From Melioribacteraceae bacterium (GTDB taxonomy: Bacteria; Bacteroidota; Ignavibacteria; Ignavibacteriales; Melioribacteraceae), in NCBI GenBank assembly GCA_016927595.1, contig JAFGMI010000018.1, positions 1 through 64,000 of the forward strand: a stretch of 64,000 bases of DNA, given 5' to 3'. Below the pieces are notes generated by a model, which did not search any database, had not been told where the DNA came from, and worked only from the letters and a program-made list of their open reading frames with translations. Positions within the stretch are counted from its first letter, which is position 1. Each line of letters begins with the position of its first letter. A program made the translations under genes and the position numbers. Shown in pieces: positions 14,958 to 56,959 of the stretch.

Positions 14958-16190
14958 CTAAAAACTGTATTTTAATTTTGTGTAAACCATATCGTTCTTG
15001 TCGTATCTCCCGAACTGACCTTCATTCCCGATAAATAAATTTGCGCCTAACATTATTTGAAAACCGTCGACAAAATCATACGTTACCTTCGGACGAATAA
15101 GAGCATCGCGGTCATTCAAACCGATGTAGGAGAACAATTCCACATTCACTGTTTCCCGTAAAAAATCCATTGTTGCTAAAAAAGTGATAGTATTTTCAAA
15201 TTCATCGTTAATTAAATAATCATCGTAATCCATAACTGCCTGCTGAATGAACTGGCTGCTTAATTTTAAGTCGCCGATCGTATAGTCGATACCGACCAGA
15301 TAATGAATGTAATCTTTTTCAACAACTCCTTCATCAAGAGCCGGATTAATAGACTGAAAATTTTTACCTGTATAGTATGCGCCTTCACCTCTTAAAACTA
15401 ATGGTCCGAGAGTAGTGCTGAAACTTCCGCCCAATGTTGTTAAGCGATGATGTTCGGGCTTAAGCACAACTGAATCAACTATTCCAACATTTTGATTTAT
15501 TATTTTTTCAGAATGAAAAGCCGGGTCATCATCCCATGAATAAGCCGCCATTAATTCAAAATCGATTGCAGAAGAAAGCAGCGAGTATTTAGCAAAAATT
15601 TCACTGTTGCCTAGTTTATCTTTTACATCTGTATTTGAATAATCAACACTATACGGCAAAAGATATTCCGGCTGCAGACTCCAGATTGAACTATGATCGG
15701 GCATTTGAGTTGATGTAAAGACCGGAATCCATACTAATTCAAAAGTGCTGTTGTCAAGATAGTAATTGAATCTGAGAGCAGTAACGCCGACGCGTATTTC
15801 ATTAAAATCGGGGAGAAGGAATTCGCGCATATCTTTAGGTGAAACTATATCTGTAATGAATACGCCGTCGGCTTTTCCCCAAATTATTTGCTGCTTACCT
15901 ATCCGTATATCGAAAGAATCGAAATATAAATCCAGGTATGCCTGTCTGATTCCCAATTCAAGTTTCTCGTCCGAGTAGTGGTACAGAAAAGGATTTACTT
16001 TGAAATAAACATCACCTCTGCTGTGTTCAATATTCAGATCGAAAGTGTTTTGAATTACAGAGTATTCGCTCTCACCGGTTGTTAACGCACCGAGGTAGGT
16101 CCTTGCATAACCGCTCAAAGATAAATCCTGTGCCTTACCAATGGTAACCGATAAAAATATTAATGGAATTATTATTTTTTTCACTAACAT
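14958..16190 (-). CDS. Outer-membrane beta-barrel protein of the MMPL/LolA-like module
   Basis: The 410-residue protein has an N-terminal signal peptide (ending GKAQ) and long alternating strands, and ends in an aromatic residue (KLKYSF), as outer-membrane barrels do. A motif GKQQIIWGKADGVFITDIV followed by PKD (about residues 98-119) resembles the alginate-porin/DUF1302-like barrel family. The same layout (GK-x4-WGK-x3-F, then V-x-P, then KD) occurs in the barrel at 54745-56025. It is separated from the LolA-like gene by a single base, which argues that the two work together. Proposed role: outer-membrane acceptor or export channel for whatever the permease and LolA-like protein handle. Confidence 0.75.
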   Translation of the reverse strand: MLVKKIIIPLIFLSVTIGKAQDLSLSGYARTYLGALTTGESEYSVIQNTFDLNIEHSRGDVYFKVNPFLYHYSDEKLELGIRQAYLDLYFDSFDIRIGKQQIIWGKADGVFITDIVSPKDMREFLLPDFNEIRVGVTALRFNYYLDNSTFELVWIPVFTSTQMPDHSSIWSLQPEYLLPYSVDYSNTDVKDKLGNSEIFAKYSLLSSAIDFELMAAYSWDDDPAFHSEKIINQNVGIVDSVVLKPEHHRLTTLGGSFSTTLGPLVLRGEGAYYTGKNFQSINPALDEGVVEKDYIHYLVGIDYTIGDLKLSSQFIQQAVMDYDDYLINDEFENTITFLATMDFLRETVNVELFSYIGLNDRDALIRPKVTYDFVDGFQIMLGANLFIGNEGQFGRYDKNDMVYTKLKYSF

Positions 16191-16191
16191 T

Positions 16192-16977
16192 TTATATGCC
16201 TCTTTTCATCATTCTTTCGGTAAACATACCGTCATCAAGACCGGTATTTATATTTACATTTTTCAGAATCATAATAGTTTTATGATCTTTCTGGATATTG
16301 TGCATTACCGAATGAGTTATCACCCAGTAGCCGTCAATTTTATCGTACTTCTCAACGGTAAGATTTTTCAGATGCTCGTCGTCTTCATCGTAGAATTCCT
16401 TTTTAAGACCGATCCATTTATCTTTAATTATCCAGGTTATGGTGCGCGAATACATATAATCATCTTCTATGGGGATGCTTTCAACAACGTAACATTCCTC
16501 ACCACCGAAAGTCTCTTCACGCAAAAGTTTATGAGTATCTTCCGAAGGATGACGATCGCCGAGATCATCATATGTAAAATCCGAGCCCATGAAGTAATCG
16601 CTTTTGCTGTCACTGGAAATTCTTTTAGTTTTTTTTAGGGCGGGCAGATAAATCCACTGGTCGTCATCACGTCCCTCTTCCTCATAGCTCCAATTCATAA
16701 ACGAGGTATTCCTCACGTCGGCAGGTGAAAGGAAGAACATAATATTTTTTTCTTCTTCACCGAAATCTTTGCTGAACTGTTGTATTTCGCGCACTCTTTC
16801 ATCACCGCGCGAATTAATAAGTGTCATAGTTAAATCTGATTTTGAATCATCGCCGGTCGGACGATAATAAACGTTTTCGATAATCTTTCGTCCGGTTAAA
16901 TTTTCCTGGGCAAATATGCTCAGACTAAATAATACCCCGGTTAAAAGTGTCAGTGTTATTACATTTCCGAGTTTCAT
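16192..16977 (-). CDS. LolA-like outer-membrane lipoprotein-sorting family protein
   Basis: The 261-residue periplasmic protein has a signal peptide ending IFAQ and the COG2834/LolA_like pattern: an N-terminal R-K-I-I-E-N-V-Y helix, strands with IMFFLSPADVRNTSFMNW and DQWIYLPALKKTKRI, and the acidic GSDFTYDDLG segment. Family members have a LolA/LolB-type half-barrel that carries a lipidated or hydrophobic ligand. It lies between YtfJ-like and barrel genes in a tight operon with an MMPL permease. A paralogous protein at 53937-54674 occupies the same place in the ABC module. Confidence 0.85.
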   Translation of the reverse strand: MKLGNVITLTLLTGVLFSLSIFAQENLTGRKIIENVYYRPTGDDSKSDLTMTLINSRGDERVREIQQFSKDFGEEEKNIMFFLSPADVRNTSFMNWSYEEEGRDDDQWIYLPALKKTKRISSDSKSDYFMGSDFTYDDLGDRHPSEDTHKLLREETFGGEECYVVESIPIEDDYMYSRTITWIIKDKWIGLKKEFYDEDDEHLKNLTVEKYDKIDGYWVITHSVMHNIQKDHKTIMILKNVNINTGLDDGMFTERMMKRGI

Positions 16978-16978
16978 T

Positions 16979-17545
16979 TTAAAATTCCTCCTTGTTTATT
17001 TCACTTTCAATTATTTTCAATAAATCATTTCCAGAATCTTCATTAAGTTTTTCGTTGAAGAAGTAAATTACTGAGCCGGATTTATCAGTAATAATTATAT
17101 TCGGATTGTCTTTGGATAATATCCATCCATTTAAAAGAACCGCATCCTTATCAAGCACATAGGTTTTAGTTTTATCAACCTCAGCTTTTGTTTTTACTTT
17201 TCCCTCGATAATAGCATCGGGGATCCATGTAGCCTTAGTATTAATAATTAATGTAACTTTCATCAATTCAGTAGAATACCCTGTCCTGTCAATTATATCC
17301 AGCAGCGGTTCAACATCATTTTGCTGATCTGGAGCTACGTAAAAAACCACGTTTAGTTGATTTATGAGATCCGAGCTTTTCCATTCCATACCGTTAAAAC
17401 TGCCACCATTGTCTCCGCTTAAATTTACTGCCGGAAGTGTTTTCCCGACTTCGATTTGTGCGTTCACCGATACTGTTGCAAACAGACAAACCATCAGATA
17501 CGGATGGATTGTTCTGAAGCTTTTCATCATTCTATTAATCCTCAT
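16979..17545 (-). CDS. YtfJ-like secreted thioredoxin-fold protein lacking CxxC
   Basis: The 188-residue protein has a signal peptide (ending VNAQ) and then a sequence with the YtfJ layout: VGKTLPAVNL, a VVFYVAPD strand, VTLIINTKATWIPDAII, TYVLDKDAVLLNGWIL and IIITDKSGSVIYFFNEKL. The fold is thioredoxin-like, but the protein has no redox-active CxxC pair. The function of YtfJ is not well established. The start at 17545 is preceded by AAAGGA, and the gene overlaps the MMPL stop by 11 bases, so it belongs to that operon. The assignment rests on pattern similarity that I recognise by eye. Confidence 0.65.
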   Translation of the reverse strand: MRINRMMKSFRTIHPYLMVCLFATVSVNAQIEVGKTLPAVNLSGDNGGSFNGMEWKSSDLINQLNVVFYVAPDQQNDVEPLLDIIDRTGYSTELMKVTLIINTKATWIPDAIIEGKVKTKAEVDKTKTYVLDKDAVLLNGWILSKDNPNIIITDKSGSVIYFFNEKLNEDSGNDLLKIIESEINKEEF

Positions 17546-19838
17546 TATTATTCCTTTTCTTTTTGAAATACGTGTCTGATTTGTACAAAACCAAAAACAT
17601 TATTGTAACTGTTCCCAGGAAGCTTGTAAACATGTTGAGTGAAACCAATGCACCGAGAGATCGGTTTGGTGGAAAAACGGAAAATAAAAGAACAAGGAAT
17701 CCTGCTATAACCACAATCGCATTAAAGATTATTGCTCTTCCTGAGTGGTGCATAGTTTCCTTAATAGTTATATTCTTATCGCCGGATTCAAGTGCATAAA
17801 TTTTATAGCGCTCTATAAAGTGGACAGCGTAATCTATTCCGATACCTACTGCTATGCTCGATATCAGAGCAGTTGTTGTACTTAAGGCTATATCAAGCAA
17901 TCCCATTAGTCCGAAGCTGATTATAGCAGTAATTACAATTGGTATCGCGCCGATGAATCCTATTTTAATTTTTTTGAACATCAACGATAGAAGAACAATT
18001 ATTATTACGACAGAAAGAAGCAGGCTTTGTATCTGACCTTCCAAAATCAGATCAGTGAAAACCAGAGCTTTATAGCCTGAACCTGCATAGTTTATATTCA
18101 CGCTTACTTTTTCAAAATCATCTCTATACTTTTCGATAGCAGCTATAGCTCTGTTAATTTCTTTTGAGTTATCACTTTTCAACTGTATATTAACATTAGC
18201 CTGCCTGTAATCGTAATCAACAACTTTCCACAGATTGTCCGGATCGCCTGACATTTCATAAAGCAGAAGATACTGTGCGATCAGGTCACGTGAATCAGGT
18301 ATAACGTTGTACGTCTCATCATCGCCATGCATTACCTTATTCATTCTTTTTAAATAATCTGCCAGCGAGAATGAATTACCGACAACATCAATCGATTCAA
18401 CGTCGTTCTGCATCTCATCTATTATTCTTTGAACTTCCGGCTGCTTGAATGCATCGTTGTTTTCAGAATCCAGGATTACATTAATAGTGTTTGTACCGCC
18501 AAAATGTTGATTAATAAAGTCGTCGGTTTGTACAATGTCGCTGTCTTTTTCAAATTTCTCCAGAAAGCTGGAGTTGATCCAGACTTTATTTATACCAATA
18601 ACGGATATGATGACAATGATTCCGGTAATCGAAATCACAATCCATTTGAATTTCACGGTCCAGTCAGCAAAAGAATATGCGAGTTTACCGTTGTCTTCTT
18701 TAGATTTCTCTTTATGCGCTTTCCTTTTTGGCAAACCAAACACCATGATTCCTGCGGGTATAAGCACCAAAGAAAACACCATTGCCATCATTACACCGAA
18801 CGAAGTAAAAACCCCGAAATATTTAATCGGATAAACATCAGAACTTAGAAGTGAAATAAACCCAACCGCAGTAGTAACAGAAGTCATTACAACCGGTTTC
18901 CACATTTCTTTGAGCATGTCTTTCACAGCTTCAAGTTTATTTGCCCCCGGATGCTCAAAAAGGAACAGATCAAGATGACTGTAAAGATGAATACCGTCTG
19001 CCACACCTATCGCAATCAGCATAACTGGTATCATCGTAGAGACTGAGTAAATTGGAATTCCGAACATAGCCATTAAACCGAAAGCCCATATTGTGCTCAA
19101 TAAAACGACTAGCAATGTTAAAATTGTGTTTCGTACGCTTCGCAGTACGAAGTAAAGTACAAGAATAATCACGGCAATAACAATCGGCACCATAATCTGC
19201 ATATCTTTAGGACCTAAATATGCAAGCGTCCCTTCTACAATCGGTACTCCAGCTACATAAAGCTTTTCCGGTCCTTCGTAAGATTTTGCCAAGTCAAGTA
19301 TCCGATGATAGAATTCAAGCGAAAAAACATCATCTTCTATTTCAGCAACAATAAGTGAGATTTGTTCGTTTTCCGAAACTATACGTTTGAAAACCATTTC
19401 ATTGTTTCTGACATCTTCTCTTAATTGATTTAGTTTTTCTTCATCCTGTGGAACTTTGTTATAAAAATCTTTTACATCCAACCCGGTTTCGGTTCCCATT
19501 ATGTTTTCAGCAGTGTAAAGAGAAGTAACATCATCTTTATTAATCTCTTCTGTTTTCTGAAGTTTTTTTGTAATGTCTTTGATTTTTTTCAAAGTACCGG
19601 AGTTATAGATTCCGTTTTTATTTTCGATCGCTATTAGTATGCCGTCTTTAATATCAAACAGTTTTTCGGCTTGATCGCTGAATACAAAAGCCGGATGATC
19701 GTATGGCATATATTCATCCAAGTCGGTTTCCATACGTGAGTTTTTCAGCATTCTATCGAGAAAAAGCAGAGTTAAGGCAGCGATAAAAATCAAGACTGCA
19801 AGTGATCTGATCATGTGTATGTTCTTCGGGCATTTCAT
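17535..19838 (-). CDS. MMPL/RND-superfamily permease
   Basis: The protein has about 767 residues and the classic duplicated RND/MMPL plan: TM1, a periplasmic loop, TM2-6, a cytoplasmic link, TM7, a second periplasmic loop and TM8-12. Acidic residues in the membrane core are visible (IGVADGIHLYSH and GIGIDYAVHFIERY, at equivalent places in each half). Such pumps use the proton gradient to move lipids or other hydrophobic compounds. The frame is open to 19862, but that start lies within a palindromic operator; ATG 19838 (AAAGGA nine bases upstream) is preferred. With the LolA-like and barrel genes it forms a possible inner-to-outer membrane lipid or lipoprotein route. Confidence 0.9.
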   Translation of the reverse strand: MKCPKNIHMIRSLAVLIFIAALTLLFLDRMLKNSRMETDLDEYMPYDHPAFVFSDQAEKLFDIKDGILIAIENKNGIYNSGTLKKIKDITKKLQKTEEINKDDVTSLYTAENIMGTETGLDVKDFYNKVPQDEEKLNQLREDVRNNEMVFKRIVSENEQISLIVAEIEDDVFSLEFYHRILDLAKSYEGPEKLYVAGVPIVEGTLAYLGPKDMQIMVPIVIAVIILVLYFVLRSVRNTILTLLVVLLSTIWAFGLMAMFGIPIYSVSTMIPVMLIAIGVADGIHLYSHLDLFLFEHPGANKLEAVKDMLKEMWKPVVMTSVTTAVGFISLLSSDVYPIKYFGVFTSFGVMMAMVFSLVLIPAGIMVFGLPKRKAHKEKSKEDNGKLAYSFADWTVKFKWIVISITGIIVIISVIGINKVWINSSFLEKFEKDSDIVQTDDFINQHFGGTNTINVILDSENNDAFKQPEVQRIIDEMQNDVESIDVVGNSFSLADYLKRMNKVMHGDDETYNVIPDSRDLIAQYLLLYEMSGDPDNLWKVVDYDYRQANVNIQLKSDNSKEINRAIAAIEKYRDDFEKVSVNINYAGSGYKALVFTDLILEGQIQSLLLSVVIIIVLLSLMFKKIKIGFIGAIPIVITAIISFGLMGLLDIALSTTTALISSIAVGIGIDYAVHFIERYKIYALESGDKNITIKETMHHSGRAIIFNAIVVIAGFLVLLFSVFPPNRSLGALVSLNMFTSFLGTVTIMFLVLYKSDTYFKKKRNNNED

Positions 19839-19851
19839 GCGGTTTATTCCT

Positions 19852-19869
19852 TTAGTTAACATTAACTAA
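19852..19869. promoter_or_regulatory. Palindromic operator before the MMPL permease gene
   Basis: TTAGTTA-ACAT-TAACTAA is a perfect inverted repeat overlapping the end of the downstream TetR gene and lying 14 bases before the chosen permease start. The TAACTAACATA half recurs before the other two genes of this cluster, which suggests one regulator acts on all of them. Confidence 0.6.
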
Positions 19870-40518: not shown

Positions 40519-40989
40519 ATGAAAAAAGGGCTTACTAAAATATTATGGCATTGTACCTTAATCGCCGTATTTTCAATACTTGTAAATAATACGGTTTTTA
40601 TTCATACGCATATCCTGCCTGACGGAAGAATTATTCAGCATGCTCATCCGTTTAATTTTTCCGGTGAAAAATCCGGTTCGCAACCTCATCACAAACATAC
40701 TTCAAAAGAATTTTTGCTGCTTTCATATGTCTATGAATTATTCAGCAACTCGATTATTTATTTTATTGCAATAGTATTTTTATTAAGACGTATTTCAGAA
40801 CATAGTCACTCTGGGGTAGTAAAATTATTTCCTTTCGGGATTAAAAGAGTAAAAACTCCGCGAGCGTCTCCGCAATTACTGTTATCTCAAAATTATGGTT
40901 CACTTAAGATTGGTTTATTTAATTTATTTTCCAGGAGAAACAGTAATGAAAAAAATATTTGTGTGTTTATTAATATTGCTTTTTGTTAA
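40519..40989 (+). CDS. His-rich membrane-anchored hypothetical protein
   Basis: The 156-residue protein has an N-terminal hydrophobic segment (about residues 9-27), a His-rich stretch (HTHILPDGRIIQHAHPF, then QPHHKHTSK) and a second hydrophobic helix (about 75-92). The topology puts the His-rich loop in the periplasm. The C-terminus is basic. The end overlaps the start of the TonB receptor gene by 44 bases in another frame, so they are co-transcribed. I do not recognise a function; a metal-binding periplasmic partner of the receptor is plausible inference. Confidence 0.7.
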   Translation: MKKGLTKILWHCTLIAVFSILVNNTVFIHTHILPDGRIIQHAHPFNFSGEKSGSQPHHKHTSKEFLLLSYVYELFSNSIIYFIAIVFLLRRISEHSHSGVVKLFPFGIKRVKTPRASPQLLLSQNYGSLKIGLFNLFSRRNSNEKNICVFINIAFC

Positions 40990-46833: not shown

Positions 46834-47319
46834 ATGAACACAACAGTATCCCGGAGTTATTATACAGATGATGTCACTAACATCTGTGGAGAATTTATTG
46901 AGCATGGACATCTTATACAAACAGACATGAATGACAATAAGACAGGCAACATGTTTACAACAAAGAAATACGATACTGTAACCCGGGATTATATTTGTGG
47001 CGGATTGATCGATTCATTAAATAATTATCTCGAAACGGCATTTGCAGCTTACAAAGCAAAGGCAGGAGATTTTTATATAATGCCTCTCTTTCGTTTTGTA
47101 ACCGCATTACTTCAAATTGATTACTTAAAGCCAACTCCGCCTGATGTTGAAGTAAAAGATGTTTCTGCAATCTTAAACAAAGCTTTAGTTGGTAATTACC
47201 TTACTCCCCTATCAGATACATTGGGAAATATACCTAATGAACCGGTTGAATTCTCGGCCGGAAAATATACTTACTACACCTTTAATTTTTCTGAAAGGCA
47301 TAAGTATTACCTTTATTGA
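46834..47319 (+). CDS. Hypothetical protein, no recognised family
   Basis: The 161-residue protein starts 39 bases after the metal exporter gene. I recognise no family. It is soluble, acidic in the N-terminal third, with a TRDYICGGLIDSLNNYLETAF segment and a C-terminal stretch rich in Tyr (YTYYTFNFSERHKYYLY). No signal peptide is seen. The reading frame fills the space before the histidine kinase gene, 54 bases downstream. Codon use looks like that of its neighbours, which supports it being real. Confidence 0.55.
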   Translation: MNTTVSRSYYTDDVTNICGEFIEHGHLIQTDMNDNKTGNMFTTKKYDTVTRDYICGGLIDSLNNYLETAFAAYKAKAGDFYIMPLFRFVTALLQIDYLKPTPPDVEVKDVSAILNKALVGNYLTPLSDTLGNIPNEPVEFSAGKYTYYTFNFSERHKYYLY

Positions 47320-47373: not shown

Positions 47374-49491
47374 ATGAATATTTACTCACTTCCGGCAATC
47401 ATATCTTTAACTATAAATTTTAGTATTGCTTTCATTGTTTTAATGGAGAAACCAAGAGCGGCATTGCACCAGTGGTTTGCTGCTTTCATTTTCAGTTTTG
47501 CAATCTGGAATCTTTCTGAGATCATCATCCTGAACAGTGCTAATATGTTACCTGCTCTTCTAGGTGCGCAAATTCTTTACAGGATTATTTTTCTTGCTCC
47601 AGCTTTCTATGTTATAATAGCCTATCTGTTTCCCAAAAATTTCAGCAGGTATGGTTCAAATCTGTTTTTCTTTATCGCTGTATTTTCACCGCCAATAATT
47701 ATGCTCTCTTTATCTTTCCCCGATTTTCAGATTGAGTTGATCACGCTTAGAGAAACGCCTTTAATCTATCATTATCATTTTACGTTCAACTTTAATTTTG
47801 TTTTTTTTATTCTGATTTTAATTTCGATCAGCTATATAGTATGGGGCAGCATTGTTCTGGTAAATAAAATCCGCCGTCTGCATACAATCCGCCTTAAAAA
47901 TCAGACCCGTTTCTTTGTAGCTGGGATGACTTTTATTTTTATCGGTTTTGTAATAATCATTTTACTTAAAGGAATAATTCCCAACCCGGCTTCTTATTAT
48001 TTCCTGTCCACTATATTTACTTTTATAATTGCATTATTCTTTTTTACTGCACTTATCAAATTTCATCTGCTCAACCCTGGGAAGTTGCTTAGCGGGGGAA
48101 TAACTTATTCTGTCCTCACGGCTGTATCATTCGCAGTTTATTTTTTTGTTATACAGGCGGTCAGCGAAAGTCTGGAATCGTGGATTGGAATTAACTCCTC
48201 AATTTTCGATGCCATCCTGGTTGTTACATTGATATTTATAATCCTGCCTTTTGAAAAGCGTTTGCAAAATCTTTTCGAGAGATGGTTAAATAAAGACCTG
48301 CATCAGTATCGTAAAAACATTCTCCTTCTTTTTCGTGAATTACAGATATATTATGAAATTGATGAATTCTTTATGATTGTTACCCGTTTTATAACCGATA
48401 ATTTTAAAACCTCGGCAGTATATATCTTTACTAATCACCCCGGATCAGACTTCTTCTTTGAAATAGGTCCGGAAGAAATGATTCCTTCAATCCCGCCGGA
48501 TTCTTATCTAATCAAAGAGCTTAAGCGGCAAAAAAGCGCTGTTGAATTCTATGAACTTAATCATAATGAATTGAGTGAAGAGTGCCGTCAGTTTTGTGAA
48601 AGTGTTCATGCAAAATTCTTTTTACCGATTATATATGAGAATATTCTGATGGCAATCGTTGTACTTTGCCGTAAAAAATTCGGATTGGAATACAATGAGA
48701 ATGAGAGAGAGATCATGTCCATCTTGGGAAGCGAAATTGCTTCTTCATTACGGCGGAATCAAATTATTGAAGAAATCAGGGGAAAAGACCGGAAACGTTT
48801 CCAGCTGGAAAAACTGGCTGCGTTAGGTCAGCTTACTGCAAGTGTTGCACACGAAATCCGCAATCCGCTCAACACAATTTCTACTTCAGCAGAAACTCTT
48901 TTGCAAAAAAATATTTCCGAAGTAGATAAGTCTCAGTTGAATCAATTCATTATTGAAGAATCCAATCGCTTGAACCGTATACTCACCGATTTTCTCAATC
49001 TTGCACGCATTAAACTGGCAGCCAATTCAGAAATAGATATTGAAAATATTTTTGAACGGCTTAGCATGGAACTACAAAACTCAAATATGGCTGAAATTAA
49101 AATCACTTATGAATTTGAAACAACACAAAAAAAAATTATCAGCGATCCGGATTTACTTTTCCAGGCTTTATTGAATTTGGGATTAAATGCACAGTCGGCA
49201 ATACAAGAACGCTGTAATAAGGAAAAGGTATTTACCTGTAGGCAAGGCATAATAAAATGGGTGATGAGCATTGATAACAACCATTTTAAACTTTCTGTTA
49301 GGGATAACGGAGTTGGAATACCACCTGAAATCAGAGAATCAATTTATAATCCGTTTTTTACTACAAAGAAGACAGGCACAGGTTTGGGTTTGTCAATTGT
49401 TCAACAGATTACAGAAGTGCTGTCCGGTTTCATTAGCTTTACTTCAAAACCGGGAGATACCTGTTTTACAATTTATCTGCCGAAGCCGTGA
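47374..49491 (+). CDS. Membrane sensor histidine kinase with 7TM and GAF-like input
   Basis: The 705-residue kinase starts with a block of seven or eight membrane helices (to about residue 295), of the histidine-kinase N-terminal 7TM type. A GAF-like region (about 315-455, with FYELNHNELSEECRQFC) precedes the HisKA domain with phospho-acceptor His493 in ASVAHEIRNPLNTI. The HATPase domain ends with DNGVGIPPEI and GTGLGLSIVQQI. It lies 25 bases before a sigma-54 response regulator gene, its likely partner. The signal is unknown; a membrane or lipid-derived cue is possible from the 7TM part. Confidence 0.92.
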   Translation: MNIYSLPAIISLTINFSIAFIVLMEKPRAALHQWFAAFIFSFAIWNLSEIIILNSANMLPALLGAQILYRIIFLAPAFYVIIAYLFPKNFSRYGSNLFFFIAVFSPPIIMLSLSFPDFQIELITLRETPLIYHYHFTFNFNFVFFILILISISYIVWGSIVLVNKIRRLHTIRLKNQTRFFVAGMTFIFIGFVIIILLKGIIPNPASYYFLSTIFTFIIALFFFTALIKFHLLNPGKLLSGGITYSVLTAVSFAVYFFVIQAVSESLESWIGINSSIFDAILVVTLIFIILPFEKRLQNLFERWLNKDLHQYRKNILLLFRELQIYYEIDEFFMIVTRFITDNFKTSAVYIFTNHPGSDFFFEIGPEEMIPSIPPDSYLIKELKRQKSAVEFYELNHNELSEECRQFCESVHAKFFLPIIYENILMAIVVLCRKKFGLEYNENEREIMSILGSEIASSLRRNQIIEEIRGKDRKRFQLEKLAALGQLTASVAHEIRNPLNTISTSAETLLQKNISEVDKSQLNQFIIEESNRLNRILTDFLNLARIKLAANSEIDIENIFERLSMELQNSNMAEIKITYEFETTQKKIISDPDLLFQALLNLGLNAQSAIQERCNKEKVFTCRQGIIKWVMSIDNNHFKLSVRDNGVGIPPEIRESIYNPFFTTKKTGTGLGLSIVQQITEVLSGFISFTSKPGDTCFTIYLPKP

Positions 49492-49516: not shown

Positions 49517-50917
49517 ATGGAAACTTTTGAACACACAATTTTAGTCGCTGACGATGAAGAAAAGACACTCAAAGTATTAGATATAAATCTGAAAAATAAA
49601 TACCGGGTTATCCTTGCTGCTAACGGCAGCGAAGCGATTGAATATCTTAAAAATGAAACAGTTCACCTGGTGCTTACCGATTTGCGTATGCCTGAACAAG
49701 GCGGTTTGGATTTGCTGAAATATGTACAACAACACTATAAACATATTCCGGTAATGATCGTAACTGCATTTGGTTCGGTAGAAAATGCCGTACAGGCAAT
49801 GAAGATGGGAGCGTATGACTATATCCTTAAACCAATACAGATAGCCGAATTGGAGCGGCTTATAGAAAAAGCTCTGCATTATGCCCGGCTGCTTAATGAG
49901 AATGTAGAACTGAAAGAACGTTTAAAAAAATATGAAGGTTACAGGGAGATTATTACAGCTAATCCCAATATGAAGGCATTACTTGAAACAATGAAACATG
50001 TTGCTGCAACTAATGCCAATGTACTCATCGAAGGTGAATCGGGTACCGGCAAACAGTTATTAGCTGCCTCGGTTCACTATATGAGCGCTCGGGCTGATAA
50101 ACCGTTCATAGAAATTAATTGCGGTGCTATTCCGGCAAATTTATTGGAAAGTGAATTGTTCGGACATGAAAAAGGTGCCTTTACCGGAGCTGTTAGTACC
50201 AAGAAAGGCAAATTTGAACTAGCAGATAAAGGCACTATTTTTTTGGATGAAATTGGCGAGTTGCCTTTGGAGCTACAGGTTAAGCTGCTGCATGTCCTGG
50301 AAAATCAGAAATTTACCCGTGTTGGAGGTACTCAATATATTGAAACGGATGCCCGTATTGTTGCTGCAACCAATCGCAAATTAAGTGAAGAGGTTAATAA
50401 AAAAAATTTCCGAAGCGATCTTTATTATCGTTTAAAGGTAGTGTATTTACAGATACCGCCTTTACGGGAACGCAAAGAGGATATTCCCTTGCTGGTTAAT
50501 AACTTCATTGAAAAATATAAAGACTTAAATGCCGACAAACAGGCTAGCATTTCAATATCAGAGGAGGCTCTGTGTATTCTTCAATCTTATTATTGGCCGG
50601 GTAATGTACGTGAATTAGAAAATATAATTCAGCAGACTATTATCTTTGCCAAATACGGACAAATTACATCGGACTCACTGCCGTCTGAAATACTTGAAAA
50701 TGCAATCATACCCTCCCTTACAAAAGAAGAACTCCGGTATGAAAAAAACAAACGAACCGGAAAAATTATTCGGGACATTGAATATAATTTCGTGAGGCGA
50801 ATCCTTGCAAAAACCGGTGGGAATATTACTAAGGCTGCCGCAATAAGCGGCTACGACCGGAGGCAAATACAAAATTTAATTAAGAAGTACAGAATCCACA
50901 CCGAAGACTTCAGGTAA
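49517..50917 (+). CDS. Sigma-54-dependent response regulator (NtrC family)
   Basis: The 466-residue regulator has a receiver domain (phospho-acceptor Asp55 in LVLTDLRMPE) and then the AAA+ domain, with Walker A GESGTGKQ (Q where E is usual), ELFGHEKGAFTGA for sigma-54 contact, and Walker B GTIFLDEIGEL. A Fis-type HTH closes it (ITKAAAISGYDRRQIQNLIKKY). It is co-transcribed with the kinase. Two GAAATnACATTTC palindromes directly after its stop are likely binding sites. Target genes include at least the SPW protein, by inference. Confidence 0.94.
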   Translation: METFEHTILVADDEEKTLKVLDINLKNKYRVILAANGSEAIEYLKNETVHLVLTDLRMPEQGGLDLLKYVQQHYKHIPVMIVTAFGSVENAVQAMKMGAYDYILKPIQIAELERLIEKALHYARLLNENVELKERLKKYEGYREIITANPNMKALLETMKHVAATNANVLIEGESGTGKQLLAASVHYMSARADKPFIEINCGAIPANLLESELFGHEKGAFTGAVSTKKGKFELADKGTIFLDEIGELPLELQVKLLHVLENQKFTRVGGTQYIETDARIVAATNRKLSEEVNKKNFRSDLYYRLKVVYLQIPPLRERKEDIPLLVNNFIEKYKDLNADKQASISISEEALCILQSYYWPGNVRELENIIQQTIIFAKYGQITSDSLPSEILENAIIPSLTKEELRYEKNKRTGKIIRDIEYNFVRRILAKTGGNITKAAAISGYDRRQIQNLIKKYRIHTEDFR

Positions 50918-50920
50918 TGC

Positions 50921-50933
50921 GAAATTACATTTC
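50921..50933. promoter_or_regulatory. Putative activator site 1 (GAAATTACATTTC)
   Basis: This near-perfect palindrome (one mismatch) begins just after the response regulator stop. It matches site 2 in 12 of 13 bases, with centres 66 bases apart. The arrangement resembles paired upstream sites for NtrC-type activators. Confidence 0.5.
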
Positions 50934-50986
50934 TTACTTTAAAATGCTTATATGGATTAATTATAAGCGATCTCTAAAATATATGT

Positions 50987-50999
50987 GAAATGACATTTC
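50987..50999. promoter_or_regulatory. Putative activator site 2 (GAAATGACATTTC)
   Basis: This is a perfect palindrome, GAAATG-A-CATTTC, about 85 bases upstream of the weak -24-like element at 51075 and 146 bases before the SPW gene start. With site 1 it forms a pair with matching sequence and helical phasing of about 6.3 turns. Confidence 0.55.
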
Positions 51000-51074
51000 C
51001 CGTTTCCGTTTTTAGCAGCATATCTGAGACTTAGTAACTCATTGTTTTTACAGGAGTAACTCTTATCTGACTTA

Positions 51075-51091
51075 TTGGCATGAATTTTTAT
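51075..51091 (+). promoter_or_regulatory. Possible sigma-54 promoter with weak -12 element
   Basis: TTGGCATG (51075-51082) agrees well with the sigma-54 -24 element (TTGGCACG). The -12 part after four bases is TTTAT instead of TTGCT/TTGCA, so it lacks the key GC. It is suggested by the activator gene upstream, but remains doubtful. Confidence 0.3.
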
Positions 51092-51144
51092 TCAATTATG
51101 ACTGTAGTGTCAAATAATTAAAAAAATAGAAAGGAGGAATTAAT

Positions 51145-51471
51145 ATGTGGCAGGCATGGACGGTAGGTATTTTAGGAATCTGGCTGGCAGTAGCAGCTTT
51201 CCTGCCCTTCGCCCCGGATGGGAACCTGTGGAATAATTTGCTGGTCGGTATCATTGCTGGTATCGGCGGGTTTACCATGATTAAAGAGAAATCCTGGCAG
51301 GGTTGGACGGCAGGTATCCTGGGTATATGGTTGATTATTGCTGCATTTATACCTGAGATTCAGGCTCATACAGGCAACATGTGGAATGGCATTATAGTTG
51401 GCATTCTGCTGATGATTGCCGGGTTTGGTGCTCTCGAAAGTAAAGGTCATCATATACCTCATACACCCTAA
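51145..51471 (+). CDS. SPW-repeat small membrane protein
   Basis: The 108-residue protein consists of two similar halves: MWQAWTVGILGIWLAVAAFLP with NLWNNLLVGIIAGIGG, then SWQGWTAGILGIWLIIAAFIP with NMWNGIIVGILLMIAG. Each half makes two membrane helices of the SPW family type. AAAGGAGG is an excellent ribosome-binding site. The function of SPW proteins is unknown. It stands alone between a sigma-54 regulator and its own terminator, so it is a likely target of that regulator, perhaps in a membrane-stress response. Confidence 0.85.
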   Translation: MWQAWTVGILGIWLAVAAFLPFAPDGNLWNNLLVGIIAGIGGFTMIKEKSWQGWTAGILGIWLIIAAFIPEIQAHTGNMWNGIIVGILLMIAGFGALESKGHHIPHTP

Positions 51472-51501
51472 ACTCATCAGATGAGAACCAGATTTGGAGT
51501 T

Positions 51502-51534
51502 AAACACCGGATCTTTTTGATCCGGTGTTTTTTC
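51502..51534 (+). terminator. Strong rho-independent terminator after the SPW gene
   Basis: AAACACCGGATC (51502-51513) pairs perfectly with GATCCGGTGTTT (51519-51530) over a five-T loop, with T residues continuing to 51533. This is the clearest terminator of the window. Confidence 0.93.
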
Positions 51535-51542
51535 TATAGTAA

Positions 51543-51686
51543 CCGGATTTACGAAATCGGGTTGCTGAAGTATTACACGGATTAGGATTTGAACACGTTA
51601 ATAACTCACCTTTTAAAGAGCAAATCATCACATTATTAAAATTGAAAAAAGTTAAAGAAGTATCCTTGCAAAAGAAATACCGGTAA
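51543..51686 (+). pseudogene. Possible coding relic without a start codon
   Basis: This frame of 47 codons lies between stop codons and has protein-like content (RVAEVLHGLGFEHVNNSPF, then KEQIITLLKLKKVKEVSL) but no start codon or ribosome-binding site. It may be the tail of a lost gene. I do not recognise a family. The remainder of 51535-51964 shows no gene and presumably carries the promoter of the ABC module. Confidence 0.2.
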
Positions 51687-51964
51687 AATTATTAAAGCTG
51701 GTTAACTATATACAGATGAAATGGATTTCAAAATGTAATAAGTAAAATTTCAGAATTTACAGAAGCGAAAGGAATGTCATTGATTATGAAAACCACACCC
51801 TAAAAAATTGCCTCACAAGTCCGCCTGATATTATATTGAGTGAAATAAAGATCAGTCTTTCACGTATAATTTGGTTATGTTATTATAATAATAAAATTAT
51901 CAATTAAACTTTTTCTTAAGACCAATTGTCAAATGTAAAATTATGAAATCAAAAGGATTGTATA

Positions 51965-52660
51965 ATGAGTCTTATCCGTATTGATAACGTAACGAAACTT
52001 TACCAAACAGGAGAAGTTCCGGTAACAGCATTGAAAGATTTATCGGTTACTATTAATCAAAAGTCGTTTGTTTCTTTTATCGGTCCTTCGGGAAGCGGAA
52101 AATCAACACTTTTAAATCTGATGGGTGCGCTTGATAAACCTACCGAAGGTAAAGTAGTTATTAATAACGTTGATATTGCCGGGCTCGACCGAACACAATC
52201 GGCAATTTTCAGAGGAAGCAATATCGGTTTTGTGTTTCAGAATTTTAATATGATACCGGTGCTCACTGTTTTTGAAAACGTTGAGTACCCGCTTTTAATG
52301 CTCAAACATATTTCGGCGAATGAGAGGCGGGATAAAATACTTACATTGTTAGATAAAGTGGGAATGCTAGACCAAAAGGATAAATATCCAAATCAAATTT
52401 CGGGCGGACAAAAACAACGTGTAGCGGTTGCACGTGCATTGGTAACTAATCCTAAAATTGTTCTGGCGGATGAACCGACGGCAAACCTTGATCATAAAAC
52501 CGCTTATAAAGTAATAAGCATTATGCACGAAATGCAGAAAGAATTCGGAACTACTTTTATTTTTTCCACTCACGATACTAAAATTGTGGACGAGGCGGAA
52601 ATTATATATACGCTTGAAGACGGCGTAATCGTTAATTCAGAAGTCAAAACAAACAATTAA
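51965..52660 (+). CDS. ABC transporter ATP-binding protein (LolD/MacB type)
   Basis: The 231-residue ATPase has Walker [11 protein letters not shown]-loop [21 protein letters not shown], signature QISGGQKQR and Walker [13 protein letters not shown] with the H-loop in STHD. The sequence after the Q-loop is that of the LolD/MacB/FtsE subfamily, which works with FtsX-like permeases to extract or move substrates without pumping them through a classical channel. It is followed by such a permease nine bases later, then by LolA-like and barrel genes. Confidence 0.93.
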
Positions 52661-52669
52661 AAGGATGAC

Positions 52670-53899
52670 GTGAATAATATAATTAAAATTGCAGTCCGCA
52701 ACTTGTTCAGGTATAAACGCCGGACAATTCTAACTTCAACTCTTATTGCTTTCGGAGTTATACTTGTAATTGTCTTCGGTGGTTTAGCTATTTCTTTCAA
52801 AAGTCAGATGATCGGTATTATTACAAATACTTCCATGGGCGATCTGCAGATTCATAAAAAAGGTTATGTTGAATCTATTGATAATCTTCCGCTGAATATT
52901 AATCTTACTGCAGAAGAGCTAGCATCAATAGAAACTAAAATGAAAGATATACCCGAGATTGCAGCTTACAGCCCGCGTATAAAATTCGGAGCTATGATCA
53001 GTAACTACGCTCAAACATCAAATATTCGTCTGAGCGCGGTTTATCCTGAAATGGAAAGTAAAACCGTGTCCGATCTGGTAACAAGGATTAAGGGGACCAT
53101 GACCGATCCTGTTAACTTTCTGAAGCCAGGTGAAATACTTGTTCCCGAAAACTTAATGAAGGGTCTTTCCTTAAATGTGGGTGACGAGGTGGTTCTGGTC
53201 GCAACAAACCAGGACGGTTCCGTAAACGGCATAACACTTCGTATAGCAGCCATGATTGAAAATGTTCTGGGACCTTCCGGCAAGGACGGCTACATGCACA
53301 TTAACGATGCGGCAGGACTCTTGCGCATGGAACAGCCCGCAATTGTAGAGATCGCTGTTCACTTAAAAAGCTTTGAGCAGCTTGATAAAGTTTACGGTCA
53401 ATTAAAGAAAGAGTTTTCATCCTCATCGTTATTTGAGATTCATACCTGGGAACAGCTTTCTCCCTTTGCAAGCATAGCCCGAATTGTGGATATACTGATC
53501 TTTGTCGTAAAATTCATACTAATCTCAATCGTACTTGTAAGCATTTTGAACATAATGACGATGTCTGTTTACGAAAGAATAGGAGAGATTGGAACTATAG
53601 CTGCAATCGGCACTACCCCCCGGAAAATATTATCCCTCTTTATTGTTGAAGGATTTGCAATGGGATTCTTAAGTACTGTTGCCGGTGTCGTACTTTCTTT
53701 AAGCACCCTGGTAATAATGAATATGGCAAATATTAATTTTACATTCGGACAGATGAATTTAACTCTTAATCCCGGTATTCCGGTTGGAGAGGTTTTTTTA
53801 ACCACTTTCATTGTAATGCTTGTATCGATACTTGCAAGCTATCAGCCGGCGCATAAAGCCTCTAAAATGGCACCGGTGGATGCACTCGGTCATACATAA
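52670..53899 (+). CDS. FtsX-like/LolCE-type ABC permease
   Basis: The 409-residue protein starts at GTG (AAAAGGA upstream). One N-terminal helix (about residues 20-43, after the RNLFRYKRRTILT cytoplasmic anchor) precedes a large periplasmic MacB_PCD-like domain (about 44-270). Three C-terminal helices follow, with the FtsX motif VYERIGEIGTIAAIGTTPRKI between the first two. This is the LolC/LolE/MacB layout. As part of a set with LolD-like ATPase, LolA-like protein and barrel, it could release a lipoprotein or other lipid-bearing substrate from the inner membrane. Confidence 0.92.
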   Translation: MNNIIKIAVRNLFRYKRRTILTSTLIAFGVILVIVFGGLAISFKSQMIGIITNTSMGDLQIHKKGYVESIDNLPLNINLTAEELASIETKMKDIPEIAAYSPRIKFGAMISNYAQTSNIRLSAVYPEMESKTVSDLVTRIKGTMTDPVNFLKPGEILVPENLMKGLSLNVGDEVVLVATNQDGSVNGITLRIAAMIENVLGPSGKDGYMHINDAAGLLRMEQPAIVEIAVHLKSFEQLDKVYGQLKKEFSSSSLFEIHTWEQLSPFASIARIVDILIFVVKFILISIVLVSILNIMTMSVYERIGEIGTIAAIGTTPRKILSLFIVEGFAMGFLSTVAGVVLSLSTLVIMNMANINFTFGQMNLTLNPGIPVGEVFLTTFIVMLVSILASYQPAHKASKMAPVDALGHT

Positions 53900-53936
53900 T
53901 TGCAGTAATAAATCGTTAATAGAAAAAGGATATTTA

Positions 53937-54674
53937 ATGAATAGAAAAATTTCCAGCACAGTTAACCTGATACTTCTTTTAACAATATCGATCTTTGCCC
54001 AGGATGCAGATAAATTACTGAAAGAAGTCGATGAAAACCTGATGCCCGATTCATACGAAGCATACAGAACATTAATTAATGAAGAACCCGACGGTTCAAA
54101 AAAAGAATTTACTTTCTACACCGTTAAAAAAGGCAAGGATAAGATCGCAATGCTCTACCTGGCACCGGCTAGCGAAAAGGGGCGTTCAACTCTGAGACTT
54201 GGCGAAAATATGTGGCTCTATATTCCAAGCGTAAATAAACCGATACGTATAACTAGCCTTCAGTCGGTAACAGGCGGGGTGTTCAACAATGCTGATATTA
54301 TGCAGCTGGAATATTCATACGAATATAACGCCGAATTTGATGAAGGCACTGAAACTGAATTTATTCTCGACCTGAAAGCAAAAAACAAAACCGTTGCATA
54401 TGACAGATTAAAAATGTGGGTAACAAAGAACGACAAAATTCTGAGAAAAGTTGAAGCATATTCTGCAAGCGGGATGCTTATTAAAACTCTTGAATTTAAG
54501 AATGATAAAGATTTCGGAGGCGGTATTGTCCGCCCTGCTGCTATTGAAACATACAGTCCGCTTTATAAGGGTTTCCGGTCAGTAATGATTTATATGTCGA
54601 TAAGAAAGCGGCAGCTGCCCGATGAAGTATTTACGCAGAATTATATGAGCAGATTAGATGACTTGCGCCGTTAA
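53937..54674 (+). CDS. LolA-like outer-membrane lipoprotein-sorting family protein
   Basis: The 245-residue protein from ATG 53937 (AAAAAGGA upstream) has a signal peptide ending IFAQ, then DADKLLKEVDENLMPDSYEAY. It shares the LolA_like pattern with the 16192-16977 protein: IAMLYLAPASEKGRSTLRLG, MWLYIPSVNKPIRIT, then DIMQLEYSYEYN. It should be a periplasmic carrier with a hydrophobic half-barrel. The next gene frame overlaps its end, but that overlap is not used if the barrel starts at 54745. Confidence 0.85.
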   Translation: MNRKISSTVNLILLLTISIFAQDADKLLKEVDENLMPDSYEAYRTLINEEPDGSKKEFTFYTVKKGKDKIAMLYLAPASEKGRSTLRLGENMWLYIPSVNKPIRITSLQSVTGGVFNNADIMQLEYSYEYNAEFDEGTETEFILDLKAKNKTVAYDRLKMWVTKNDKILRKVEAYSASGMLIKTLEFKNDKDFGGGIVRPAAIETYSPLYKGFRSVMIYMSIRKRQLPDEVFTQNYMSRLDDLRR

Positions 54675-54744
54675 TAATTTTGTGCCGGTAGTTAGCTGTA
54701 AATGGAATTTACAGAATTGTATAAAATTACTTCCCGGTTTTTTA

Positions 54745-56025
54745 ATGGTGAAAACAAAATTGTTTATCATAGCTTTCTTAATCTGTTTTAATATTTTTCT
54801 TCAGGATAATATCACTGCTCAGTCTGACGATGATTTCCGGTTTAATGAGGAAGCTGCACTTGAATGGAGCGGCAATCTTGATGTAAAATATTTACTTCTG
54901 AATATGAACCGTGAATCAGCGATGTATAAACTGCAATTTGGAAATTCCGTGGTATCCTCTTTTTCTCAGTATCGTCTGGAACCATATTTAAACGCCGAAT
55001 ACCGTACTGGCGACATAGGCTTTTATCTTAAAACACATGGCTCGTATTATAATGACGAAGAAGCGGGTTTTGATTTGTTTGAAGCGTATGCAAATTACAA
55101 CCTGTCGTTCAACGCCTTTGTTCAGGCGGGTAAACGTGTTTATAACTGGGGAAAAGGTTATGCGTTCAACCCGGTTGGATTTGTGAATCCGCTTAAAGAC
55201 CCAGAGAATCCTGAGTTGGCAAAAGCAGGGCTTCTCTCAGCGAATATAGAGTACATAAAAAGTTTTTCTTCGGACGCCCTGCAGTCTTTAGCTCTGCAAT
55301 TAATAATTATTCCTCCTGAAGAACTAATTAATTCGCGTTACGGTGAAGCAAGGAATACAGATTTTGCATTCAGGTCCTACTTCCTTCTATGGGATACAGA
55401 TATCGATCTGATGATGTATTACAGCAGAGTTAATCCTCAAAGATTTGGAATTGATTTTTCACGTAATATCACGGAGAATTTTGAGATACACGGCGAATTA
55501 AGTTATAATAAATCCGTTACTCAGTATTCAATTGAAAATTCAATTTTAAAAAGTGCCGTAATAAATAATTATTCATGTCTCTTCGGCGTACGTTATCTTG
55601 GTAAAACAAATACAACGGTTATAGCAGAATATTATTACAACGGCGCCGGTTTAACCGGAAGAGAATCCGACGCTTACAATTTATTTCTGGCAGACGGTTT
55701 TGCGAGCGGCAGCTCTGAAACAATAAAGCAGACTCTTGCGGTAAACCAGTTGTATTTCAGAAACAGTACCCTTATGCGGGAATACCTTTACGTAAAAATT
55801 ATTCAGCCGGAGCCGTTTGACTGGCTTTACTTTACTCCTTCCGTCTTTACAATTTATAATCTGAATGACAATAGTTTTCAGGTCTCGGTTTCATTAAGCT
55901 ATAAACCGGTTACCAATATTGAATTTCTCCTCTGGCCGTCGTTTTTATTCGGAGACAACGACTCGGAATTCGGCAGCCGGCAGGTTAAACAAAAAACAGA
56001 ATTTTGGGCCCGGGTCTATTTTTGA
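54745..56025 (+). CDS. Outer-membrane beta-barrel protein of the ABC/LolA-like module
   Basis: The protein has about 426 residues from ATG 54745 with a signal peptide ending ITAQ. The frame is open upstream to 54658, but that extension has no signal sequence. It contains the same strand motif as the MMPL-module barrel: VQAGKRVYNWGKGYAFNPVG then VNPLKDPENPE. It ends in an aromatic residue (FWARVYF), typical for outer-membrane barrels. No clear ribosome-binding site precedes the chosen start. It completes the ATPase-permease-carrier-barrel series. The 283 bases that follow show nothing of note. Confidence 0.75.
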   Translation: MVKTKLFIIAFLICFNIFLQDNITAQSDDDFRFNEEAALEWSGNLDVKYLLLNMNRESAMYKLQFGNSVVSSFSQYRLEPYLNAEYRTGDIGFYLKTHGSYYNDEEAGFDLFEAYANYNLSFNAFVQAGKRVYNWGKGYAFNPVGFVNPLKDPENPELAKAGLLSANIEYIKSFSSDALQSLALQLIIIPPEELINSRYGEARNTDFAFRSYFLLWDTDIDLMMYYSRVNPQRFGIDFSRNITENFEIHGELSYNKSVTQYSIENSILKSAVINNYSCLFGVRYLGKTNTTVIAEYYYNGAGLTGRESDAYNLFLADGFASGSSETIKQTLAVNQLYFRNSTLMREYLYVKIIQPEPFDWLYFTPSVFTIYNLNDNSFQVSVSLSYKPVTNIEFLLWPSFLFGDNDSEFGSRQVKQKTEFWARVYF

Positions 56026-56308
56026 TTTATTATCCTTATTAAGAAATGCTGAAACTATTATAAATGCTTCTGAGATAAGAACAAAAGCAAAAAGATTTAT
56101 GCTGTTATAGCCTGTGCAACAGGAAACATTAAATCGTGCACCGTACCAATCATTCTTTATTGAGCATCCACCCCCTGCTACTCTTTATTTTAAGAGGTTA
56201 AAGTTTTAATTTACCTGCAGTTTAATTTACATCTATTCCACTTGGGAGATATGCGGAGAATATCAGTAATAATAATTCCAATTCTTGTGCAGGAGTACAA
56301 TAGGCTAA

Positions 56309-56959
56309 ATGAAAAGTGACCTGATTAAATCGTATTTTAATATAGTTAAAAACGCCAACAAGGAACTCCCTAAAAAAGAAGCATTCAAGGATTTGTTAAA
56401 CCGTTTGTATTCCGGAGATCCTGAAATCCAACAGATAATCGATAAGATATCACTCGGCGCAGAGGCTTCTGTACTGGATATACCGAGAAAAGACCGGCTG
56501 CATAGAGGAAGTGCAGATACACTTTACAACAAGATTATTATTGAATTCGAAAATGATTTAAAACTGACACTAAGTCATGCCAAAGAGCAGTTAGCCGGGT
56601 ATTTACTTGGACAATTTAATGCCGGGGAGGGTTACAACTTTACGCTTATTGCAACCGATTGTATAACATGGAAAGTATATGCTCCTGATGTAACTCAACT
56701 GGATATTATGGGCGAATTAACTGAGGACGAACTTATTCTGAACGAAATTAAAAGCGCCTCGTTTGTTCTTAAAGAAAATAACTCAGAAGAGTTTTATTAC
56801 TGGATTGACCGTTTTCTTTTTAAGGAAGAAAAACAACACGCCACGTTAAAACGTATTGAAGAAGCCTTCGGATACCAGAGCAACGTTTTCCTTCAGGCAT
56901 CCCAGACAATCAGCCATCTTCGATTTCCTCTCTCACGGTTACAGCACCAATTGTATTAG
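56309..56959 (+). pseudogene. Truncated N-terminal part of a restriction-modification protein
   Basis: The 216-residue frame resembles the N-terminal portion of large Eco57I/type IIG-like enzymes that combine endonuclease and methylase. Visible are SDLIKSYFNIVKNANKELPKKEAF, DIPRKDRLHRGSADTLYNKI, the acidic IIIEFENDLK nuclease-like strand and AGYLLGQFNAGEGYNFTLIATD. Such proteins usually exceed 800 residues and go on to a DPPY methylase domain, missing here. Family-like sequence ends near FGYQSNVF (about 56890). The last 20 or so residues run antisense into the hipS remnant and are not homologous. It is therefore a deletion product, whether or not it is still translated. Confidence 0.65.
56888..56917 (-). 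pseudogene. Remnant of hipT start
   Basis: On the minus strand, ATG 56917 overlaps the hipS stop (ATGGCTGA) and gives MADCLGCLKE. A CxxC start of this kind is common at the beginning of HipT/HipA C-terminal kinases in split hipBST loci. After about ten codons the sequence becomes the antisense of the restriction-protein fragment, so the rest of hipT is lost. The identification rests on this short segment and the gene order. Confidence 0.4.

Follow-up and report, generated by a model that had tools for sequence, protein, structure and literature searches.

Shuttles of the LolA type are familiar chiefly from lipoprotein transport, and the locus described here raises the question of what else such machinery could carry. 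In a stretch of 64,000 nucleotides from a Melioribacteraceae bacterium (assembly GCA_016927595.1, contig JAFGMI010000018.1, positions 1 to 64,000, the whole of which is called the window below), a four-gene operon on the + strand at 51965-56025 encodes a LolD-like ATPase of the ATP-binding cassette (ABC) type, an FtsX/LolE-like permease, a LolA_like carrier and a beta-barrel, in that order. The operon is real and conserved, it is not the housekeeping Lol system of its genome, and it is a variant of Lol-type transport. Our leading proposal, to which we would give somewhat less than even chances, is that it represents a Lol-related pathway with a specialised role, an ATP-driven exporter that is linked to metals or metalloids in part of its relatives. 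An operon of four genes with its own pump, shuttle and barrel, found in many phyla, is a clean case for testing other cargoes of the Lol machinery, and it offers a test of how a shuttle could hand its cargo to a barrel.

A conserved operon apart from the housekeeping Lol genes

The first gene (51965..52660, +) encodes an ATPase of 231 amino acids (ABC_tran, 1.9e-35), the translation of which displays a Walker motif, the signature ISGGQKQR and the H-loop STHD; its best NCBIfam model is LolD (TIGR02211), at 219.8 bits, which misses the cut-off of 307.75. It is followed by the sole permease gene of the operon (52670..53899, +; 409 amino acids), whose product has FtsX and MacB_PCD domains and reaches 101.1 bits against LolCE (TIGR02212), short of the cut-off of 362.45. 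The gene for the periplasmic carrier (53937..54674, +; 245 amino acids) matches LolA_like (PF17131) at 141 bits, the cut-off being 30, and its translations indicate ATG 53937 as the most likely start, rather than TTG 53820. The N-terminus of the carrier resembles a signal peptide by eye and has no lipobox, and no lipobox-like site was found in the first 35 residues of any of the 63 aligned carriers. The closest solved structure is that of NE2245 (PDB 3buu, 6e-32), and for most such solved structures the periplasmic function is unknown (PMC6394551; the articles cited here by PMC number were available as extracts, to which all statements about them refer). The barrel gene (54745..56025, +) closes the operon; its open reading frame (ORF) opens at 54658, the start is placed near ATG 54745, from which its translations show a signal-peptide-like stretch, and its product matched no Pfam family.

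Homologues of the housekeeping genes are found elsewhere in the genome, an assembly of 59 contigs with a completeness of 99.8%. On contig 2, genes for two LolC/LolE-like permeases, which score 231 and 285 bits against TIGR02212, precede the gene whose product matches LolD better than any other in the genome (288 bits, TIGR02211), and contig 24 carries a LolA (PF03548, 56.9 bits, cut-off 23.6) which adjoins a gene read from its sequence as FtsK-like. None of the LolD and LolC/LolE matches, including those of the likely housekeeping set on contig 2, reaches the curated NCBIfam cut-offs, and the pair in the window scores below the contig 2 set, at 220 and 101 bits. Whether lolA and lolCDE exist elsewhere was one of the checks proposed in a preliminary description of this DNA, made from the sequence alone. 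With separate LolC, LolE and LolD homologues on contig 2 and a LolA on contig 24, the operon is not the only Lol-type system of the genome, and its identification as the housekeeping system is ruled out.

A scan of contigs gave 153 relatives of the carrier, the best 80 of which were kept. These are 58-82% identical to the carrier of the operon, and their contigs are labelled as Ignavibacteria, Bacteroidetes, Bdellovibrionales, Elusimicrobia, several groups of Deltaproteobacteria, Spirochaetes, Neomarinimicrobiota, KSB1, Edwardsbacteria and others. Where enough sequence was available (at least 1.9 kb upstream and at least 0.9 kb downstream of the carrier), genes for LolD and FtsX lie upstream in 70 of 71 loci and a barrel gene lies downstream in 70 of 73, and all four genes keep their order in 60 of the 64 loci that extend far enough on both sides; the four exceptions include problems of ORF calling (L165, L162), with the barrel and other ORFs overlapping or cut. 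At the LolD-FtsX and carrier-barrel junctions the median is a four-base overlap, and a median gap of 38 bases separates the carrier gene from that of the permease. Relative to the window, median identity amounts to 63% for the carrier, 62% for LolD, 51% for FtsX and 35% for the barrel, and the conservation of the carrier to the same degree as the ATPase fits a constrained cargo site. Beyond these four, no gene recurs in more than about 20 of the 80 loci, antisense ORFs aside. At one locus (L093:5021-7992), genes for a metallophosphatase, an unassigned protein and a glycerophosphodiester phosphodiesterase are inserted between carrier and barrel, which perhaps hints at lipid chemistry.

Predicted folds and the three paralogous modules

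The AlphaFold2 model of the permease (predicted local distance difference test score, pLDDT, 84.4) has LolE as its best Foldseek match, LolC and MacB being matched as well, and in a profile search of the PDB LolF comes first (3e-27), with LolE at 2e-22. As in the LolF/MacB type, one gene encodes an FtsX fold with a large periplasmic domain, and since the operon holds a single permease gene, the protein may form a homodimer as in LolF and MacB. The model of the barrel, built from 54748, comprises 18 strands (pLDDT 91; predicted template modelling score, pTM, 0.84) and aligns in VIA-align with OccK2, one of the Occ/OprD channels (Z 23, root mean square deviation 3.3 over 297 residues), and with AlgE (Z 22, 3.9 over 304 residues). 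The predicted fold is OprD/AlgE/LamB-like, a likeness in fold that does not establish sequence kinship to OprD. The conserved segment of the barrel, GKRVYNWGKGYAFNPVGFVNPLKDPE (55129..55206, +), is situated at the end of strand 5 and within the 31-residue loop that follows it (131-161 of the model); residues W134 to A139 are invariant in 62 aligned barrels, and the strand parity suggests that the long-loop segment WGKGYAFNP would lie towards the outer side. We propose that the FtsX homodimer would extract a cargo, which is probably hydrophobic, from the membrane, that the soluble LolA-like carrier would ferry it across the periplasm, and that the co-encoded barrel would take it over at the outer membrane, to be released or inserted there.

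The preliminary description had called the operon the second module of its kind, and had proposed that two energy sources feed paralogous carrier-barrel pairs. The genome contains three such modules and not two, one of the MMPL type and two of the ABC type, and its PF17131 carriers are likewise three, distributed over the MMPL module of the window, the operon and contig 32. The MMPL-type module occupies 14958..19862 on the - strand and consists, according to domain matches and profile comparison, of the genes for an MMPL protein (17535-19862), a YtfJ-like protein (16979-17545), a LolA_like carrier (16192-16977) and a DUF1302-like barrel (14958-16190). The module of contig 32 (4203-10032 of locus L030) comprises a carrier, two FtsX permeases, LolD and a barrel, in this order, together with a TetR gene that is divergent. 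Comparable sets of genes are found in L077, L078, L081 and L084, with no TetR match recorded for L081.

The homology that had been put forward for both carriers and both barrels of the window is borne out by pairwise and profile comparison. The two carriers are 24% identical (E 1e-8 in a five-protein database) and their profiles match with a probability of 98.2%, the reversed control giving 0.1%; the three carrier families are joined by profile-profile comparison at 98.2, 100 and 99.9%. Pairwise similarity of the two barrels is weak (30% over 69 amino acids, E 7e-5), but their profiles match at 97.5% (E 8e-12) against 0.8% for the reversed control and 0.2-1.2% for comparisons with a set of TonB receptors and with DUF3943. 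The three barrel families are joined at 97.5, 99.6 and 99.3%, with all controls below 10%, the highest being the third-type barrel against TonB receptors (9.4%). Chance similarity of the barrels is ruled out by the reversed profiles and these two other families. In a search of the genome, the profile of the ABC barrel recovers nothing beyond itself and a weak match to the barrel of contig 32, and DUF1302 (PF06980) matches the MMPL barrel at 5.4e-10 and gives no direct match to the ABC barrel.

The motif GK-x4-WGK-x3-F, which had been reported in both barrels, is present in the ABC barrel of the window and absent from the MMPL barrel. It occurs in 27 of 69 barrels of the ABC type, in none of 16 of the MMPL type and in none of 7 of the third type, and as it is confined to part of the ABC type, the exact motif is ruled out as a common signature. 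The core that the barrels have in common is G[KRQ]-x4-WG, found in 69/69, 14/16 and 7/7 barrels of the three types, respectively.

In the Desulfobacteraceae locus L116 (3246-10587), genes for LolD, FtsX, carrier, barrel, an MMPL pump and a second PF17131 carrier stand in a row, with gaps of 11 and 1 bases flanking the pump ORF and a single barrel recognised, as if two pumps had one exit in common. A DUF3943 gene adjoins the MMPL module of the window (13515-14936), and one precedes the ABC module in the Ignavibacteria loci L072:3293-4723, L087:1528-2952 and L088:2372-3802, L072 and L088 being very likely the same contig. The arrangement of L116 and the placement of DUF3943 fit the earlier idea of exchangeable power units, which, apart from the number of modules, agrees with the presence of both MMPL-type and ABC-type modules in this genome. 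Among 57 genomes of the family, a PF17131 match is found in 52 and exceeds the cut-off in 42; the module type of the operon is clear in two of the 57, the present genome and G035, judged by bit score and neighbours on the basis of part of the loci.

It could be argued that the operon is a paralogous Lol pathway which sorts particular lipoproteins, the barrel replacing LolB as acceptor or exit. The permease and ATPase are indeed closest to LolF/LolE and LolD, the carrier is LolA_like, and an interpretation of this kind exists for the Borrelia BBJ23-29 system, whose ligand may be lipoproteins (PMC13078400). However, separate LolC/LolE/LolD homologues and a LolA exist in the genome, and the lack of any further gene that recurs in more than about 20 of the 80 loci, antisense ORFs aside, also speaks against this proposition. 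Moreover, the ABC-type carrier profile fails on the genome's own LolA, with 1.7%, against 0.9% for the third type and 46.6% over 61 columns for the MMPL type, a weak test on a single sequence. We consider lipoprotein sorting by this route to be rather unlikely.

Metal(loid) genes around the relatives and the possible cargo

Our proposal of a specialised exporter with a partial link to metal(loid)s is based on the genes that surround the relatives. The genes that recur nearby encode ArsP_1 permeases, NifX-like proteins that look secreted, ArsR-type regulators, thioredoxins, Metal_resist proteins, SBF-family transporters (ACR3-like by reading), TonB receptors and ABC-2 transporters. Of the 465 flanking proteins, 269 are encoded on the same strand and have at most 450 amino acids; the scan for families covered every second one of these (135), and the tally covered 25 of 169 families; the background was taken from the genomes of the best-ranked 50 of the 80 loci. 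ArsP permeases are found in the ars operons of many bacteria (PMC4435449). In the 50 genomes ArsP_1 has 89 matches in 174 Mb, so that 0.16 would be expected in the 300 kb of flanks, against 14 found, in 10 loci, each assigned to its ORF by hand. The linkage is present on contigs labelled as Bacteroidetes, Bdellovibrionales, Edwardsbacteria, Neomarinimicrobiota, Elusimicrobia and groups of Deltaproteobacteria. Within 6 kb, ArsP_1 accompanies 10 of 50 modules and none of the 63 other PF17131 carriers that these genomes encode (Fisher p 1.7e-4), a comparison that uses 84 of the 89 ArsP_1 rows, five lying below the family cut-off, and carriers of at least 100 bits from a listing that reaches down to about 23 bits; for L128, the first of three candidate places was taken, none being on a contig with an ArsP_1 match. 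Over the same distance, NifX-like proteins (PF02579) are found at 12 of 50 modules and at none of the 63 other carriers (p 2.5e-5), and Metal_resist at three modules and none of the other carriers, with 0.12 matches expected, both counts being restricted to matches, picked by eye, on contigs that also hold a PF17131 carrier. The Poisson and Fisher values assume independent loci, and related genomes are not independent. For the relatives as a group, linked metal genes are commoner than in the background.

At least one of five metal markers (ArsR, CsoR, Metal_resist, SBF/ACR3-like and ArsP_1 relatives) lies in the flanks of 22 of the 80 loci, 15 of these with ArsP_1; the query proteins were taken from the loci themselves, which therefore match by construction, and six queries were confirmed singly in Pfam, the others only via their cluster or tally. 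Directly before lolD there is a CsoR-type gene in L098 and L099, a PadR gene in L100 and L102, and a Metal_resist gene in L097 and L143; ArsR-type genes precede lolD in some relatives, and in L115 the ArsP_1 ORF overlaps that of lolD. That the regulator ahead of these four genes differs between lineages suggests that recruitment took place repeatedly. A small NifX-like protein (e.g. L152:5039-5437) is encoded in about 20 of the 80 loci, mostly in Desulfobacterota-type genomes, and its gene often lies between those of permease and carrier (14 of 18 loci).

That some relatives carry the module within groups of metal(loid)-related genes probably points to export or envelope protection under metal(loid) or related redox stress, and the operon may be induced under metal(loid) or related redox stress. 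The earlier suggestion that the modules differ in cargo or in the conditions of their use is supported only indirectly, by the presence of ArsP_1 and NifX-like genes near this type and near none of the 63 other carriers. In a more specific form, which we regard as possible though doubtful, a LolA-like shuttle and an OprD-like barrel would constitute a widespread, ATP-driven route across the envelope for the export of a lipophilic metal(loid), a metal chelate or a metal-damaged lipid, switched on by an adjoining metal-related regulator (ArsR, CsoR, Metal_resist with an extracytoplasmic function sigma factor, or another). If this were true, Lol-type machinery would be used for detoxification instead of lipoprotein sorting.

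Several points weigh against a link to metal(loid)s. No marker is present in 58 of the 80 loci, some of them on short contigs, and close relatives are over-represented because the selection of the 80 loci used peptides of the carrier. The ArsP_1, SBF and NifX-like families are broad, and the metal role of each neighbour is therefore annotation and not proof; PadR, found before lolD in two relatives, is not a metal-specific family. The NifX-like loci are not independent because their linkage is mainly found in Desulfobacterota-type genomes, and the 63 control carriers are of mixed type and may include second copies of the present type, in counts that ignore contig ends; their mixed type slightly lowers the odds that we give to the metal reading. 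In the alignment of the carriers, no pattern typical of metal binding is conspicuously conserved. In the window, a putative heavy-metal exporter of the ArsP_2 family (PF11449; 45955-46794) is encoded on the same strand, 5.2 kb upstream of the operon, but for this gene, an SPW-repeat gene and the gene at 46834-47319 a search of the sequences flanking the 80 loci gave no relative (E 1e-4), and a search for ArsP_1 in the genome of the window found none. The metal reading is drawn at the level of the family, and the link is weak for the window's own copy.

If the metal neighbours were part of islands of mixed stress genes, the operon could be an exporter of lipids or hydrophobic metabolites without any tie to metals, like AmeABCD of Castellaniella. 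Deletion of ameABCD lowers monoterpene tolerance (PMC6394551), a TetR protein encoded beside the MMPL module of the window has a YsiA-like C-terminal domain, and the many loci devoid of metal markers are in keeping with such a function. Nevertheless, the linkage to ArsP_1 recurs across diverse contig labels and is absent from the other carriers of the same genomes, and we find this explanation improbable. The operon could also be an exporter of tetrapyrroles or metal chelates, in which the FtsX permease, much as HrtBA handles heme, would draw a porphyrin or a hydrophobic chelate out of the membrane. In favour of this, the fold matches of the permease include HrtBA, and TetR-MMPL-LolA_like operons are among the genes strongly induced by iron or hemin limitation in Porphyromonas gingivalis and Prevotella intermedia (PMC10434189, PMC10470040). 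Against it, HrtBA ranks behind LolCDE and MacB, the operons of these oral bacteria are of the MMPL type and not of the type of the operon, and no heme or porphyrin gene was seen in the partial view given by the annotated clusters and the 25 of 169 families. We regard this alternative as very unlikely.

Known systems and the surroundings of the operon

The specialised Lol-type exporter that we favour sets itself apart from each known system by its combination of pump and barrel. The LolCDE-LolA pathway, above all in its one-permease LolF form, is alike in its ATPase, its permease of the FtsX/LolE fold and its soluble LolA-like carrier, whereas the operon has a co-encoded barrel, one permease gene and no LolB gene, and scores far below the curated LolD/LolCE cut-offs. 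Borrelia BBJ23-29, which is proposed to move a non-polar ligand, has a homodimeric MacB-like ABC transporter, a LolA-like protein and an outer-membrane barrel in one cluster (PMC13078400). Its barrel, however, belongs to the Omp85 family and is accompanied by tetratricopeptide repeat proteins, in contrast to the OprD-like 18-stranded barrel and the four genes of the operon; the barrel of the operon has no Pfam match of any kind, Omp85 included, and its model is of the OprD/AlgE type. AmeABCD combines a DUF1302 barrel, a DUF1329 protein of the LolA superfamily and an HAE3 pump (PMC6394551). It and the MMPL module of the window both pair a LolA-superfamily periplasmic protein with a DUF1302-type barrel, as the operon pairs its carrier with a barrel homologous to that of the MMPL module; both have an RND/MMPL pump, where the operon has an ABC ATPase.

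MacAB-TolC shares the MacB-type permease fold, but the four-gene operon has a carrier and a barrel, without an adaptor of the MacA/HlyD type or a channel of the TolC type (a statement about the operon itself, as partners elsewhere in the genome were not searched). In Flavobacterium johnsoniae, LolA2/LolB2 of the flexirubin locus include a paralogue of LolA that is believed to work for one dedicated pathway; they differ in being a LolA/LolB pair, and the extract mentions no dedicated ABC pump or barrel (PMC11885536). According to this 2025 study, a pathway-specific LolA/LolB pair would be, to its authors' knowledge, the first such specialisation (PMC11885536). Among the matches listed from the open-licence PMC literature, we recognised no account of the four-gene operon or of a metal link of this carrier type, which is no proof of absence.

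Upstream of the operon, a TonB receptor gene (40895-43216) has only partial similarity to the receptors beside some relatives. A terminator-like hairpin (51502..51530, +) lies between the SPW-repeat gene and the operon; it is the only site of this kind found in a terminator search of 50800-56400, shuffles of the region giving 4.6 on average. The sigma-54 promoter signal of the window is not above chance (18 sites against 23.9 expected), with no listed site in 50917-51965. The preliminary description had stated that the operon carries no regulator gene of its own, which holds within the operon; nevertheless, a histidine kinase (47374-49491, +) and an NtrC-type sigma-54 response regulator (49517-50917, +), both identified by their Pfam domains, are encoded on the same strand and end about 1 kb upstream. 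These two proteins are candidate regulators of the operon, and relatives of the regulator are encoded near the module in L094, L132 and L149.

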